A model generated the notes under the pieces. That model was not told the origin of the DNA. It searched no databases and worked only from the letters and a program-made list of their open reading frames with translations. A stretch of 64,000 bases of DNA from NCBI GenBank assembly GCA_000827325.1, contig KN832879.1:1-64000 (forward strand). The letters run 5' to 3'. A program made the translations under genes and the position numbers. This DNA comes from Oidiodendron maius Zn (lineage: Eukaryota; Ascomycota; Leotiomycetes; Myxotrichaceae). How positions within the stretch are numbered: position 1 is the stretch's first letter; every line of letters starts with the position of its first letter. Below, in pieces: positions 1 to 41,244 of the stretch.

Positions 1-3000
1 AGATATATCCTATATATACTTAAGTATATATTATATAGACTAGAATAATTATATAATTTTGATATTAATTATTAAGGCTAAATTTATATATATAGCCTTT
101 AATTAAAGAGCTTAAATAAAAGTAGTATAAAGATTACTATATTAAATTATATATAGTTATATATCTGAAATAATAGGTACCTATAGGTATCTACTAGGTA
201 GGTAGTTATATTTTATACTACCTATCTAGTTAGGTTAGATATCTAGTAGGTAGGTAGTTATCCTTAATAGGTTACTTATAGGTACCTATTATATAGCCTA
301 ATCAAACTAATAAAGCCTATTACTTTATATATTATAAGGCTAGTAATACTCTTATAGGTATTATTAGTGATTTATAGTTATTAATTGCTATATTTAAGCA
401 GTCTAAGCCTCTAAATACTTATATTATAGATCTACTAGACTCTAATCCTAATCCTGAACTAGATCCTAATATATATTATATTAACTATCAGTATTATAGA
501 CCTTCTTGACTACCTCTCTCTTGATTTAGATCTAGATAACAGTCTTATATACTATTAAAGGATCGAAAATACTACTAACCTTAAGACTATATTAAGAAGT
601 GCTTAGTCTATTAGAAAGCTAGCTGTTAGTTAACCAATTATATACCTTTAGAGTGTAAGGAAGCTACAAGTAAGCTAAGATAGCGTTTTAACTAAGTAAA
701 CAAGAGCTTTTAGTAATATATAGCTAAACTAGAGGATATAGATAATATAGATAATCTTTAAGAAGCTTTTAAAGCCTTGATTATAGATAATACTTAGCTA
801 AATTTAAATAATCCTGATTCTATAACCTACTTTATAATATATAAGATAGTAAATATAGAGCAGGCTTAATAGATAGTTGATATACTAGCTAATCAAACCT
901 TTAAGTATACTTTAATCAATACTACTACTTATAGAATTGATCAATTAGAGTAGCTATTAACCTACTTGACTTAGTATTCAGACAACTACTTTACTAGTAT
1001 AATAATCAATACAGGTATAGTATAGATCTCTATAGCTAGAAAGAACTAGTATCAAGCTTACTTAAAAGTGTTTAATCTTGATATCCTGGATACTATAACT
1101 ACTAGATTAACCTTAATATATTTTAGTATTAATACTACTACTTTAATTAGGTTAGTTATACTTAATATATCTATTGGATTAGCTGTATTCTATATAGTTG
1201 ATATAGATACTCTTTTCCTTCTTTATCTTTAGGACTTTAATAAGATAGGAGTATATTATAATAATCTTATAGATTAGATTATCTATCTAGAAGGATCTTA
1301 TCTAGTTATCTATAACTATAGATATCCCTTTATTATATAGGGAAACTCTATAGCCAGCTACCTTATAGAGCCTGAATTATACTAGCTATACTATTAATTC
1401 AGATACCTAACTATAGAACGTCTATATTCTGTCTTGAATTAGGCTAGGTATAATAATCCCTAGTATTTTAGCTTAATTTAGAAGCTTACTAAATACTATT
1501 CCCTTTACTAGAAGAATAGCTAGACTCCCTAATGATTTAAATTTATACTCTATAATAATGATATTGCTTTTAATTATACTATATATATAGATATAATATA
1601 TATCAATAGATCACTAGTCCTCTATATTGTTAATAAAGCTATATACTTCTAGACTACTAGATAGCTTGAAAATATAATAGCTTAATATATATAGGATATA
1701 CTTTGATTTTACTAGATTGATACCTACTTAGGACCCCTAGATCTAATAGTTTATAATATAGGAACTAACTTTATAGCTATTAAGTTCTAGTAGAACATCT
1801 AGATCCTGAGTATTCAAACTAAAGCAGTTTCTACTGAAGTAGCTTAATTAATAGGAATTATAGAACAATATTATATACCTTTATACTATATATATAAAGT
1901 GATATCAGAGGAATTAACAGATATAACTATAAGTAAAGCTATCCTTTTATAACTCTTAGTTAAGGTAGTTAATAATATAATAGGATCTGATAGACTAGTG
2001 CCTACTCTACTAGTATTTAGCTTATATCCTTGACTATCTAAATCTAACCCTCCTTCCCCTTTAATTATCTAGAAAGTAGCTACTATCAAGAAAGCTACTT
2101 AAGAACTCTTGAAGCTATAGGCAAATCGATAAGTTATAGACGCTCTACAATAGTACAATAGCCTACAAGTCAATAATATATATGATTTAGAGGCTGGATT
2201 AGAGATATTAGTTTGGAGGATTTATAAGAAGGTATAGAATAGATTATATAAGCTCTTGATAATTAAAGGGGAGACAGCTATAGTAGAAATCAACAGATAA
2301 CCTATCTAGTTTAGGACTATAGTTATAAAGCTGTATTTATAGGAACTACCAGCTTTAGAGCTAGCAATCCAACTAGATAAACCTATAACTGGAACCCTAT
2401 AGCTAGAAGGATCAATTTAACCAGCAACTTAGCTACCTATCTAGCTAGCTATCTAGCCAGCTATCTAGTCAGACAATACCCTTCTAGAAGATACTATTAT
2501 AGTAGAAGATCCTAGCTAATCAGAGCCTTTATAAAGACCTCAAGGTTGCTTATAGAAGCAACCTTGATTTGACTCTTTTATAGCTAATATTAGGATCTGA
2601 ATCCCTGATCCTGATCTCTAGAATACCTAACTTAATAGCAGTAGTAAACCTTTTGAGTAGTCTTGCTAGAAGGAATTGAATAGCTTATTTGAATATAGTA
2701 TCTTCAAAATTATCAACTATATCCTATCTAATAGTCAAGTCTTTAAGACTAGGTTTATAGATAAAGTTAAGTATATAGATACTAAAAAAGCCTTTAAAAA
2801 ATCCTGACTAATTGTTTAAGGATATAGTAATAGTAGTAAGGATAAGATCCTTATATAGACCCCTATAATCCAGCAGGCTAGTTAACGGATACTCTTAAGT
2901 CTTATACCTTCTCTTTATATCTAGAATATAAAGCTATATCTTTAGGATATTTCTTAAGCTTATATATAGTCTTAGATATAGCTAACTAGAGATATTTACC

Positions 3001-4340
3001 TTAAACTATCTACTAAACTAGCTCTTTAATCAAAGTTTTTATAGCTTATCTAACCTCTTTATAGATTAGCTAAATCAGGCACTTACTAGTATAATATATA
3101 CTATAAACACTATATTAAGAAGCTTAATATAGAAGATTTAACCTTTAATCCTTATCTCTTAATTAAGAAGTATAGCAATAGAGTCATTAATATATAGACT
3201 AATAATATACTACTACTAGCTAATACTACCCTGGCTAATAAGGAAGAAGTAGCCTTGACCTTTTCTTCAAAGCCTTGCTAGAAGTTACTGACTATATTAT
3301 CTATTCTTTTCAATAGTGTAGTTATTTAGCTTTATAATATAGACAACTTAATTATAATCAGCCAGACCTATCAAATCTTAAAGATCAAATTAGCTAAAGA
3401 CTATAACTCTTATATTGCCTAGTATACTTATAGAGCCTATATTATAACTGTATTATAGCTAGAGCAGGCCTTCAGATACTCCTTTACTATATAGATAACT
3501 AATTCAACTATTATAGATAAACAGATCGATTTTCTGAATAAACAGCTATTCTAGTAACTTAATCACCCTAAGAGAGGACTATACTTTATCTCCCTTAACC
3601 TGTAGACCCTTTATATAGTAGTCTTTATAGACTCTTCTTTTATAAACAACCATGATATATCTTCCTAGATTAGATATATAGTTATTATAGTAGACAAGGA
3701 TAATAGGGCAAATATAATCTACTAGAGTTCAGTCAAATACAAGTATATTATCTAAAGCATTTTAGCAGCTAAGCTGTATACTATATCCTTAGGTTTTGAT
3801 AATATAGCAGTAATCAAATCAACGATTCAGCAGATCCTATAACGACTAATCAACCTTATGATTTATATTGATTTGAAATCCCTTTATAATTGTCTTATAT
3901 AACTTGGAACAATATACAAGAAGCGTTTGATAATCGATATAATATACCTATAATAAGCCTACAAGTATAGAGAGATATTATAAGTAGTGTAGATTGATAG
4001 GAAGTACAATATAGCCAACACTATAACAAAAGAGAAGCCTGGCAATAGCCTCAAGACCCTTATTGATTTGAATTGGCTTGATATAACGGACAGGACGATT
4101 GGCTAGGTAGATCAGGTAGATATACAAATAGATACAGGTGATAAGGGAGGAAGTTTACGGGCTCAAGACGACTAAGTTATATCCAAATCCGAGGACTAGT
4201 CTCTGGGGTAAAACCTCTTTCTTTTAGGTTTGCCTAGTGTCGGTATATCCTTGAGGATATACTAGTAGTTGCCTTAGTGGCAAGGCAACTGCCCTCATCA
4301 GCCGGATTAGGGGTAAATCCATCCCGGCTAGCGATCGAAT
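1..4340 (+). mobile_element. Decayed Ty1/Copia LTR retrotransposon (fossil)
   Basis: This is an old Ty1/Copia-type element on the + strand, cut off by the left edge of the window. Weak translated similarity shows the usual order: a gag-like part with a zinc-knuckle remnant near 600-660, integrase-like and reverse transcriptase-like stretches in the middle, and an RNase H-like end near 3850-4080. A purine-rich tract near 4143-4153 suits the polypurine tract before a 3' LTR. The 4200-4340 part, with two perfect short palindromes, may belong to that LTR, but no second LTR copy is present to prove it. The sequence is very rich in A+T and TA and carries very many disabling changes, as RIP of a repeat would leave. 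It looks old and thoroughly broken. Family assignment is moderately sure; the outer limits are not. Confidence 0.75.
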
Positions 4341-9430: not shown

Positions 9431-9640
9431 AGAGAGAATCATGAAAATTAGACTGGGGGAAGGAAACTTTTAGAACGATAACTTAATAAAACAGCACTAG
9501 AATTTCACTTGGATGGTGGCGTGCTGGCAGAATAAAAGGCGTGGGCCAGTCTCTCCAGACGTGGGTAGGCATCGGCTGACCACGCTCGGTTAAGCTACTG
9601 GCCAAGAATGCCACGACCAAAGTCCAAAAATTAAGGGACA

Positions 9641-9649
9641 AAAAAAATT
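9641..9649 (-). terminator. Pol III oligo-T terminator of the serine tRNA gene
   Basis: Immediately after the discriminator base the transcribed strand reads AA followed by seven T residues, a normal RNA polymerase III stop. This supports transcription of the tRNA gene as its own unit. Confidence 0.75.
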
Positions 9650-9796
9650 CGACACCTGTGCGATTCGAACGCACGCTCTGTGATATATTAGTATGTATCT
9701 TGGTGAAGGCCTCGCCGAAACTTACCCCGAAGGAAATGCCTGAACTTCGCATATAACGATAGCAGGGCATCACGTTAACCACTCCGTCAAGGTGCC
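9650..9796 (-). tRNA. tRNA-Ser(GCU) with a normal 18-nt intron and a 48-bp GT-AG insertion in the variable arm
   Basis: Read on the minus strand, all arms of a serine tRNA are present. The acceptor stem GGCACCT pairs with AGGTGTC with one G-U. The D stem is ACG/CGT and the anticodon stem ATGCC/GGCAT with anticodon GCT. The T arm GTGCG-TTCGAAT-CGCAC is perfect, and an oligo-T terminator follows. An 18-nt insertion after position 37 is the usual nuclear tRNA intron. A second insertion of 48 nt (about 9669-9716) splits the variable arm. It begins GTAAGT, carries TACTAAT near its 3' end and ends CAG, the marks of a spliceosomal intron. Without it the variable arm folds as TCC-TTCG-GGA and the tRNA is about 81 nt, normal for serine. 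The A box has one mismatch. It may be a pseudogene, but every stem is intact. Confidence 0.85.
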
Positions 9797-10282
9797 ATTT
9801 GTTGGAATGAAATCGCTTATTTTTATATATAGATCTTCCTTGAGAAATCTCCCAAAGCCGATTTCGAGCCTTAGAATATTATGTAACCCTACGTATTTTT
9901 AGTATGATCTTATTTAAGTTCTACGCGCTTTACTTAAGAGACTTTATTTTTTATTTTTACCGTCATTGATAACTTGTTCCCATAGTATGTTTAACTTTAT
10001 ACTGTTATAAGGCCATGAACTGAGGCACTATATCACGCTTCGGCTAATTGAGTTTTTGCGAAACGCCGAGGTCAAGCACCATGACTTATCGGCGGAGGAA
10101 TTAGTCCCATTTGAATTTACTAAAATGCAAAATAACCCGTCGTAGGTTGTATGCATTTCTCTATCTAGTCCACTTTCATATTCCCCGCCACCTGATCTAG
10201 CTATGTTACATTCTTTGCTTTATCAATCCAGCCATTTTATTGTTCACAGCACAGAAAGGATTCCGAAGACTCATGATGATGC
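9797..10282. other. AT-rich spacer; no gene seen
   Basis: Sequence between the tRNA gene's upstream flank and the 3' end of the 912-residue gene. It is AT-rich in its first half and shows no coding signal on either strand. Confidence 0.4.
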
Positions 10283-38514: not shown

Positions 38515-41244
38515 ATGTACTCCTTTGCTAGCATTAAGAGATTTCACTTATCAATTAAGACGCTCGCAGTTCGGACACAGTCACGTGAACGGCCTTTTTC
38601 GCACTCGGCCATCATGGCATCCATCACAGTTCATAACTCTCTAGAACCTGGCGCACCTGTTCCATTCGTGCCCAAGGAGGCAGGAAAGGTATCGTGGTAT
38701 GCATGCGGGCCTACCGTCTATGATTCCAGCCATTTGGGACATGCGCGTACCTATGTCTCTACAGACATTATCCGGCGGATTATGATGCACTACTTCGGAT
38801 TGAAGGTCACTTTCGTGATGAACATAACAGATATCGACGATAAGGTATGTTATTGACACAGAATTCCTATTTTTGCCCAATACTTACTGCTCAGATTATT
38901 ATCAAAGCTCGACGGAAGCGATTGCTGGACCTTGAGAAGAAGAAAGTATACAGCCCGGAGCAAACTTACACCCTTGGTGTCGAAGCATTTCTGGGATATG
39001 CAAAGTCTTCTTTGCCTTTACTGCAACCTGCGGGCGCTCCAATGTTAAACACGAACAATTACTTGGAGCGGAGAGACGTCGCTTATGGTCGAGTTTTGGC
39101 TGGCGGCACGCTCTCTGGAGATGGGAAGCCAAGCGATGCCGAGGCGAAGTTGAAAATGCATATCGCCAATATGGATAGCGCGGCGCAAGCACTGAGAGAA
39201 GGGGGCGTATTTGAGGGCGCAGAGGAGATTCTGCTCCCATACCTAGACTCACTGTATAAAGAGACTATTGACACAAGCGACCAAACAATATTTACGGACC
39301 TTGCACGACGCATGGAAAACGAGTTTACAGGTGACATGGATGCTTTGAACGTTCTTCGACCAGATATCACAACACGAGTTACGGAATATGTTCCACAAAT
39401 CGTCACTTTTATTGAACGGGTTGTTGAAAAAGGCTTTGCATACGAGGCGAATGGTTCGGTCTACTTTGATATCGCGGCCTTTGAAAATGCAGGAAATACA
39501 TATGCTCGGCTGCGACCCGAAAGCAGGAATGACAAAGCATTGCAAGAGGAGGGCGAAGGATCTCTGTCTAAGAGCGTAGATGGTAAAAGGAATCTTGGCG
39601 ATTTTGCCCTGTGGAAGAAGTCGAAACCAGGAGAGCCCTACTGGCCTAGCCAATGGGGCAATGGTAGGCCAGGCTGGCATATTGAATGCTCTGTCATGGC
39701 TTCAGACAGGCTTGGGGAACAGATGGACATCCATTCGGGTGGAATTGACCTGGCATTCCCCCACCATGATAATGAGCTAGCACAGAGCGAAGCATTCTTC
39801 CATCAAAGCGACATGGGGGAGCACAGGTGGGTAAAATATTTTTTCCACCTAGGCCATCTCTCTATTGCCGGATCGAAAATGTCCAAGTCGCTGAAGAACT
39901 TCCAAACCATTCAAGATGCGCTGGCAACGGCCTACACTGCACGCAATATAAGGATTGTCTTCCTGATGAGCCGTTGGAATGATGGGGTTGAGATTTCCCC
40001 TGAGATGCGGAAGCAGGCTGACAGCTGGGAGGCTGCCATCAGTGTAAGTCGTGTCATTAATGTTAAATCTATCATGCTAATGACATAGAATTTCTTCATG
40101 AATGTTAGAGCCAGATTAGTGGAGACTGGATCGACGGAAAATGGTACCAAAGATCTCTCGCCGGAGGACAATGTTGCTCAACAGCTCGCAACAAAGCTGG
40201 AACAAGCCAAGAAGGACTTGGATGCGGCTCTCTGCAACTCTTTTGACACTTTCACAGCCATGCAAGTTATCTCAAGGATTATTAGGGATGCAAACATCTA
40301 TATGAATGAATCCAATGCCAACATTCATATTGTTGAAGGGATCGCCAGATGGGTAACAAAAATCGTCGGCATTCTCGGTCTTGACTCAAACGCGAAACCA
40401 CCTTATGATGGGCTTGGTTGGTCGTCCAGCAACGTAACTGCAGCTAGCAATGTTGACCCGAAAACTGCTGTACTCCCTTATGCAGCAGTATTTTCGAGGG
40501 TAGTGGATGAGATCAGGGCACTCAAACTGTCTGAACCTTCGCTCCAGAGGGTTGTGGACCAACAGTCACCCGAGTCTGAGTTTTCACAGCTTGAGATGTC
40601 CGGCGAGAAGGTTCCTGAGAACCTCGCCTTGCCATATATACGTGCAGTCTCTCGCTTACGCGATGAGCTACGTCGTACTGTATCATCGGCATCCCTTGAT
40701 GCCAGTACTAAGCCAACGGTACTAGGGCTTGCCGACCGTATCCGTGACTATGACCTAGCCGATCTCGGTGTTCAGCTCGATGATCAGGTGGATAAGCCGA
40801 GTCTAATCAAGTTTGTTCCGGCATCCAGGCTCATCGTTGCTCGCGAAGAGAAGGCCGCACTTATCGCCGAGAAGGCGCTTCAGAAGGAGCAAGGTATGTA
40901 TTTCTATCTTTGCAGATATGTTTCTTAGTCTATTATGGAATCGACTGCTGTAAATACTCTTTGCGTTCTCCCTTGATGAATTTGTTACTGACTTCGCATC
41001 TTGAATAGCTAGGAAAGCACGAGAGAAAGTAGAAGAGGAGAAATGGGAAAAGGCTAGGCTGGTTCCTCAGGATATGTTTAAGGGAGATGACAAGTACCGA
41101 GCCTGGGATGCCGATGGAATACCTTCCATCTTGGCGGACGGTAGTGAGTTGCCGAAAAGCCAGGTGAAGAAACTCAAGAAGGACTGGGAAAGACAGAAGA
41201 AGCTGCACGAGGAGTATCTAAGCAAGTTTGTCACTAGGCCTTGA
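38515..41244 (+). CDS. Cysteinyl-tRNA synthetase (839 residues), probably dual-targeted
   Basis: Exons 38515-38844, 38895-40043, 40089-40893 and 41009-41244 keep frame across introns of 50, 45 and 115 nt. The enzyme charges tRNA-Cys with cysteine using ATP. Class I motifs are present: HLGH near 73-76 and KMSKS near 438-442. The zinc site is seen as the Cys of ACGPTVY, the Cys of WHIECS and the His/Glu of HHDNE. The C-terminus carries a Lys/Glu-rich extension as in eukaryotic enzymes. Two starts are visible. The first ATG has T at -3 (weak) and opens a 33-residue basic, Ser-rich leader suited to mitochondrial import. The second at 38614 has A at -3 and G at +4 (strong). This fits leaky scanning to serve both mitochondria and cytosol. 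It is intact. Confidence 0.93.

Follow-up and report, generated by a model that had tools for sequence, protein, structure and literature searches.

The tRNA-Ser(GCU) gene and its two introns

The window is a 64,000-nt stretch of contig KN832879.1 of Oidiodendron maius Zn. Its minus strand carries a tRNA-Ser(GCU) gene at 9796-9650, which reads as three exons and two introns and covers tRNA positions 1 to 73. The features of the gene and its flanks are as follows.

9650..9796, minus strand: whole tRNA-Ser(GCU) gene; spliced form called tRNA-Ser(gct) by ARAGORN
9760..9796, minus strand: exon 1, tRNA positions 1-37, A box intact (sequence reading)
9742..9759, minus strand: canonical tRNA intron, 18 nt, after position 37, not GT-AG (sequence reading)
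9726..9741, minus strand: exon 2, position 38 to the 5' half of the variable arm, ends GGG (sequence reading)
9678..9725, minus strand: spliceosomal-type intron, 48 nt, in the variable arm (GT-AG and branch signals, arm restoration)
9650..9677, minus strand: exon 3, end of the variable arm, T arm, acceptor 3' strand and discriminator G, with an intact B box at 9670-9660
9816..9831, minus strand: upstream element TATATATAAAAATAAG, in form like that of other tRNA genes and a split U6 gene
9640..9647, minus strand: Pol III-type terminator, run of eight T (sequence reading)

An earlier note had claimed that this strand yields a complete, paired tRNA-Ser(GCU) once an 18-nt and a 48-nt piece are taken out; this is confirmed to the base. 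The 18-nt intron lies after position 37, at 9759-9742, and the 48-nt GTAAGT...TACTAAT...CACAG segment in the variable arm, at 9725-9678, both as had been described. The signals of the 48-nt segment are GTAAGT (9725-9720), TACTAAT (9693-9687) and CAG (9680-9678), the end reading CACAG; the branch A, at 9688, is 10 nt from the segment end. After removal, the acceptor (GGCACCT/AGGTGTC), D (ACG/CGT), anticodon (ATGCC/GGCAT) and T (GTGCG/CGCAC) stems form a complete cloverleaf with a long variable arm and G73 as discriminator; its custom score is 33.0. With both introns out, the product would be an ordinary tRNA-Ser of 81 nt.

Both internal promoter boxes (A and B) are intact, and the gene is flanked by a TATA/AATAAG element upstream and by the T8 terminator. 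Neither ARAGORN (bacterial mode) nor Rfam at the gathering score reports anything in the window, the unspliced gene included; once the 48 nt are taken out, ARAGORN recognises tRNA-Ser(gct) and an intron of 18 nt in it.

Cloverleaf score alone leaves the boundary of the 48-nt segment loose; the GT-AG product scores 33.0, and many other excisions score the same. As read here, the exact boundary rests on comparison with an uninterrupted tRNA-Ser(AGA) gene of the same genome (L005, C5:876427), which has the variable arm TTTCCTTCGGGAGC. This arm is restored by two of the 4301 possible excisions of 30-75 nt from the window gene; these give the same product with a register shift of 1 nt, and one of the two registers is GT...AG (GTAAGT...CACAG). 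A chance match to a branch site is unlikely: among the 4894 GT-AG segments in the window that are 46-56 nt long, only 71 (1.5%) contain a CTAAY whose A falls 9-14 nt before the end.

Positions 1-4000 of the window are very AT-rich (25-30% GC versus about 43-54% elsewhere). This region resembles the aftermath of repeat-induced mutation in filamentous ascomycetes.

Split tRNA and U6 genes elsewhere in the genome

The genome (45.9 Mb, 58 contigs) was searched piecemeal. In two runs of an Rfam tRNA search, 63 of 1439 candidates received scores; further loci came from patterns and exon queries. Eleven further tRNA loci carry GT-AG segments of 46-56 nt at non-canonical positions, giving 16 segments in 12 tRNA loci with the window gene included. 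Position numbers and some exact registers come from reading the cloverleaf by eye; the register of Pro(AGG) was set from the anticodon loop of eukaryotic tRNA-Pro. The eleven loci are listed below, the tandem Gly genes on one line.

Initiator Met (L064): segment at 8/9
Gly(GCC), two genes in tandem (L078): segments at 53/54
Arg(TCG) (L081): segment at 57/58
Arg(CCG) (L063, C6:510738-510872): segment at 7/8, acceptor stem
Pro(AGG) (L130): segment at 33/34
Leu(TAG) (L079): segment at 6/7, acceptor stem
Trp(CCA) (L186): segment in the variable loop
Ile(AAT) (L139): segments at 6/7 and 28/29
Ser(GCU) (L047): three segments, in the D arm, at 26/27 and at 55/56
Ser(GCU) (L039): two segments, in the variable arm and at 55/56

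A short canonical intron is additionally present in several split genes, and the three Ser(GCU) loci differ in intron content. The Arg(CCG) gene, with its split acceptor stem, has a cloverleaf score of 15.5 if read as intact. Sixteen tRNA genes of the same genome have no insert or an anticodon-loop insert only. That the window gene is a quirk of a single locus is rejected on the strength of the eleven further split loci.

The yield of the pattern searches varies. The anticodon pattern gives 1019 matches versus 841 for the reversed control. A B-box pattern gives 146 versus 139, with 95 distinct places among the matches listed (100 of 146); the 85 places examined brought a single new tRNA gene to light (Pro, L130), besides seven copies of a tRNA-like repeat. 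Screening of these 85 used a script that needs an unsplit acceptor stem and T arm (54 places), script and eye (11) or eye (20); split genes may therefore have been overlooked among them. One new gene each came from 20 examined matches of a D-arm pattern (Ile, L139; 62 matches, control 35) and from 11 examined matches of a further pattern (Trp, L186; 15 matches, four of them known, control 7). Another pattern (109 matches, control 174) led to one intact Val(TAC) gene (L192) among 8 examined. Genes for Phe, Tyr, Asp, Glu and other tRNAs were not found by this piecemeal search (63 of 1439 Rfam candidates scored, plus patterns).

The tRNA-like repeat, found via the B-box pattern and the tRNA model, is multicopy and SINE-like. 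It begins GCCTGGATGGCGCAGTGGTCG and has the B-box region GTTGGTTCGAATCCAGC; the 3' flank is cctcttctgttgcctcc or nearly so in 9 of the 10 copies (L072, L076, L077, L080, L110, L156, L162, L163, L165 and L166).

Variable arms tolerate length variation and the window segment sits in one, so its 48 nt could be kept in the mature tRNA as an enlarged arm. This is extremely unlikely. The unspliced arm folds worse than its shuffles (-6.2 versus a mean of -9.06 kcal/mol, z 1.23), and elsewhere segments interrupt the acceptor stem, the T loop and the anticodon loop, places in which retention is hardly possible.

One gene of this fungus (L180, G000:C1:2364872-2365177; C1:2364972) encodes U6, a Pol III transcript; its conserved core, AAACGATACAGAGAAGATTAGCATGGCCCCTGCACTAAGGAT, is flanked by two GT-AG segments. 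Read by eye, the first (GTTAGT...TTAACTAACACTCTGAATAG) lies between TTTGGTCAATTG and AAACGATAC and the second (GTAAGT...TTCGTTATAG) between CTAAGGAT and GACACGCTC. The intact reference was the fission yeast sequence, together with the Rfam consensus. A second U6-like gene (L179, G000:C3:851593-851895) has no segment and nearly the same core; its 5' hairpin and 3' end are divergent. It scores 74.4 bits with Rfam, versus 62.0 for the split gene.

Introns in mRNA genes of the same fungus can be read from the cysteinyl-tRNA synthetase (CysRS) gene. Without the three introns below it encodes a protein of 806 aa, which was aligned to five homologues.

38845..38894, plus strand: CysRS mRNA intron, 50 nt, GTATGT...CAG; junction ungapped in 4 of 5 homologues
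40044..40088, plus strand: CysRS mRNA intron, 45 nt, GTAAGT...GCTAATG...TAG; junction ungapped in 5 of 5
40894..41008, plus strand: CysRS mRNA intron, 115 nt, GTATGT...TAG; junction ungapped in 5 of 5

Candidate introns of 55 and 56 nt in an ABC-transporter gene were chosen by reading frame only, among several possible choices. The tRNA segments resemble the mRNA introns in signals and size, in a small sample whose 115-nt intron is longer than any tRNA segment.

Splice signals and excision tests

The 16 segments begin with GTATGT (4), GTAAGT (3), GTAATT (2), GTAAGC (2) or, once each, GTGCGT, GTATGC, GTACGT, GTCAGT and GTTAAG, and end in TAG (7), CAG (6) or AAG (3); they were spotted by eye with GT-AG in mind, so the universal GT start and AG end partly reflects selection. 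In 14 of 16 segments a CTAAY motif places its A 9-14 nt before the end, versus 2.0% of shuffled segments. The motif is absent from the T-loop segment of L039 and from the Ile 28/29 segment, which has CTGAC at 9 nt. Because some segments are homologous (the Gly pair, and the variable-arm pair of the window gene and L039), they represent fewer than 16 independent events.

The earlier note had also suggested an introner-type insertion. This is not borne out, as no sequence is shared beyond the homologous pairs. Among 15 segments (Arg(CCG) excluded), the best pair outside the Gly pair scores 15, equal to the shuffle maximum of 15, and an introner family is rejected.

In a splice-blind test, every stretch of 30-75 nt was removed and the product scored as a cloverleaf without regard to splice signals; in multi-segment genes the remaining segments were removed first. 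The GT-AG product is the unique best in 7 of 16 cases (Met, both Gly, Arg(TCG), Leu, L047 26/27 and L039 T loop) and tied best in three (window Ser, L047 D arm and L047 T loop). It is not the best in six: Pro (31.0 versus 31.5), Trp (28.5 versus 31.5), Arg(CCG) (29.0 versus 30.0), both Ile segments (26.5 versus 27.0 and versus 27.5) and the L039 variable arm (25.0 versus 25.75). For Arg(CCG) and Ile 6/7 the better product is of equal length and shifted by a few bases; the remaining cases fall in loops or in the variable region, where exact placement has little effect on the score, or belong to loci that are defective in other ways.

Before removal ARAGORN gets none of the 12 split loci right and makes two wrong calls; after it, the expected anticodon is found in 8 of 12. 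Trp then becomes Gly(TCC) and Arg(CCG) becomes Arg(CCT); Ile and L039 are not found. The isotype calls are weak, because the 15 intact control genes, although all found, receive the assigned anticodon in only 8 cases. Of six split loci submitted to the Rfam tRNA model, three (Pro, initiator Met and Trp) score above its cut-off in part or in full, as does most of Arg(CCG). Chance resemblance to introns is rejected on the branch-site statistics (14 of 16, shuffles 2.0%) and the excision tests.

Ordinary position-37 introns in the same genome, and non-canonical tRNA introns in some algae (passages of PMC4090602), lend some weight to another reading: the segments could be non-canonical tRNA introns of the kind that the tRNA splicing endonuclease cuts in the red alga C. 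merolae, and their likeness to GT-AG introns fortuitous. None of 12 canonical position-37 introns delimited by hand is GT-AG, however, and one has CTAAY (a count without Trp, His, both Gln, Thr(TGT), Asn, the second Gly and L039). The window segment lies in the variable arm and not at position 37/38. The branch-like CTAAY, the narrow size range of 46-56 nt and the presence of like segments in U6, which is not a tRNA, speak against endonuclease cleavage, and we consider it very improbable. A complete relaxed bulge-helix-bulge is formed at 0 of 12 junction pairs (of the 16 segments) and likewise at 0 of 6 canonical introns; this feature does not discriminate.

It is very likely that the 48-nt segment is a U2-type spliceosomal intron in a functional Pol III tRNA-Ser(GCU) gene, that this gene belongs to an intron-invaded set, and that the spliceosome removes the intron. 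The boundaries, splice and branch signals, recurrence in tRNAs and U6, match to mRNA introns, restored cloverleaf and Pol III-type flanks are read directly from the DNA. A spliceosomal intron in a Pol III gene was the first option of the earlier note; it gains support from the eleven other tRNA loci and U6, whose segments agree in size and signals and occur at many places in the cloverleaf, as against no GT-AG among the 12 canonical introns. Pol III most likely makes the precursor. The spliceosome would remove the GT-AG intron from the pre-tRNA, and the tRNA endonuclease and ligase would remove the 18-nt intron after position 37; both events, and any order between them, we infer. The intron probably originated by spliceosomal reverse splicing into a tRNA, followed by reverse transcription and recombination.

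Function of the split genes and relation to known systems

After removal, all stems are paired, G-U included, in 8 of the 12 split loci as read by eye. The exceptions are L039, L047 (C-C at 53/61), Ile(AAT) (G-G at 53/61) and Trp (A-C in the anticodon stem). TATA or AATAAG, sought as a simple pattern, lies within 110 nt upstream of 9 of 12 split and 13 of 15 intact genes; it is missing from Trp, L039 and Arg(CCG), the last of which has the similar GATAAGCGATTTT. All 12 split loci and all 15 intact genes have a run of at least four T within 45 nt downstream. As evidence of function these motifs are weak. The window gene, L047 and the split U6 gene have a strikingly similar AAAATAAGC element in common.

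The split genes could instead be decayed pseudogenes or relics, with functional intact copies in unsearched or unassembled parts of the genome. L039 fits this description: it has no upstream element, its stems are mispaired, it is a partial duplicate, and it is probably a pseudogene. A second initiator locus (L177) lacks the 5' half, and intronless Gly(GCC) relics (L176, L178) are degenerate. Searches were also incomplete; the spliced-tRNA query passed one candidate only and missed even L039 and L047, and intact copies may therefore exist elsewhere. Against decay stand the complete pairing in 8 of 12 loci and the downstream T run in all 12. The two split Gly(GCC) genes are complete, unlike their intronless relics, and of the initiator tRNA genes found, the one with a complete structure (L064) is split. 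No intact initiator Met gene was found among the 63 of 1439 Rfam candidates scored or by patterns and exon queries. Ser(GCU) genes free of GT-AG segments, which together with a silent window copy the earlier note would have counted against its reading, did not appear either in a search of limited sensitivity; the three loci found are all split. That the split genes are decayed, with functional copies elsewhere, is very improbable.

In L177 (G000:C6:1037550-1037898) the anticodon and T arms survive behind GTAAGC...GGCTAACATAACATAG, as though a 26/27 intron had once been there. The 3' flank of L039 (G000:C3) resembles window positions 9500-9650 by eye over about 100 nt; because the flank is also similar, the duplication probably copied DNA and not processed RNA.

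The internal promoters are interrupted in some genes. The B box is split in Arg(TCG), L047 and L039, and that of Gly is rebuilt across the junction by the final G of the intron; the A box is split in L047. The T-loop intron that splits the B box of L047 contains GTTCGAAGT, one mismatch from the B-box core, which could be a replacement promoter box or chance. Leaders of 70-90 nt separate the AATAAG element from the tRNA in L200 (minus strand, upstream of tRNA-Ile) and L064 (minus strand, upstream of initiator Met). They contain A-box-like stretches (GTTAGCTCAGTGGGAAAG and TGGCGGAGTGGAGCAACGCC), which may be external promoter boxes or else remnants of tRNAs. According to passages of PMC3978253, some plants and fungi rely on upstream TATA boxes in transcribing tRNA genes; such boxes may make split internal promoters tolerable.

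It is likely that spliceosomal introns have spread among the Pol III genes of this fungal lineage (tRNAs of at least nine anticodons, and U6), splitting A and B boxes in some genes, and that translation initiation and the decoding of AGY serine codons depend on spliceosome action on Pol III transcripts. Several tRNA genes, including that of the start-codon tRNA, are split; protein synthesis is therefore probably spliceosome-dependent. If this is confirmed, tRNA genes become spliceosome substrates and the endonuclease-only rule for nuclear tRNA introns needs an exception. It raises the questions of how a Pol III transcript recruits the spliceosome, how intron-split promoters work, and in what order spliceosome and endonuclease act on one precursor. 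Intron gain by reverse splicing also becomes testable, tRNAs being short, abundant and fixed in structure; the place of each insertion can be read closely, and paralogues such as the three Ser(GCU) loci allow gains and losses to be compared. Such genes are easily overlooked, since ARAGORN identifies none of the 12 correctly before removal.

A full-text search of open-licence literature brought up no report that we recognised as describing spliceosomal introns in tRNA genes. Several known systems are related. Non-canonical tRNA introns in the D, T and anticodon arms, several per gene, are found in nucleomorphs and Cyanidioschyzon merolae; passages of PMC4090602 treat those of C. merolae as bulge-helix-bulge substrates, and give the Guillardia introns as 3-24 nt, of unknown mechanism. 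The same passages call such introns rare outside these groups and suppose odd insertions elsewhere to be pseudogenes. They describe neither GT-AG ends nor a branch site. Canonical position-37 introns occur in the same fungal genes (18 nt in the window gene), but none of the 12 is GT...AG.

Ectopic spliceosomal introns are also present in the rDNA of lichen-forming ascomycetes, and yeast removed lichen introns from Pol I transcripts (passages of PMC8527467). These are likewise spliceosomal introns in an RNA gene outside Pol II; the hosts differ, being rRNA and Pol I there and tRNA and Pol III here. According to passages of PMC5832005, no small structured RNAs other than U3 and U6 are known to be frequent hosts of introns; the passages also call U3 a polymerase III transcript and describe its introns as normal spliceosomal introns. 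The U6 snRNA and U3 snoRNA introns of fungi share with the present ones that mRNA-type introns sit in short structured RNAs. The hosts here differ in being several tRNA isotypes with internal promoters, some of which carry endonuclease-type introns as well. We rate the intron class as known and the host class as new.
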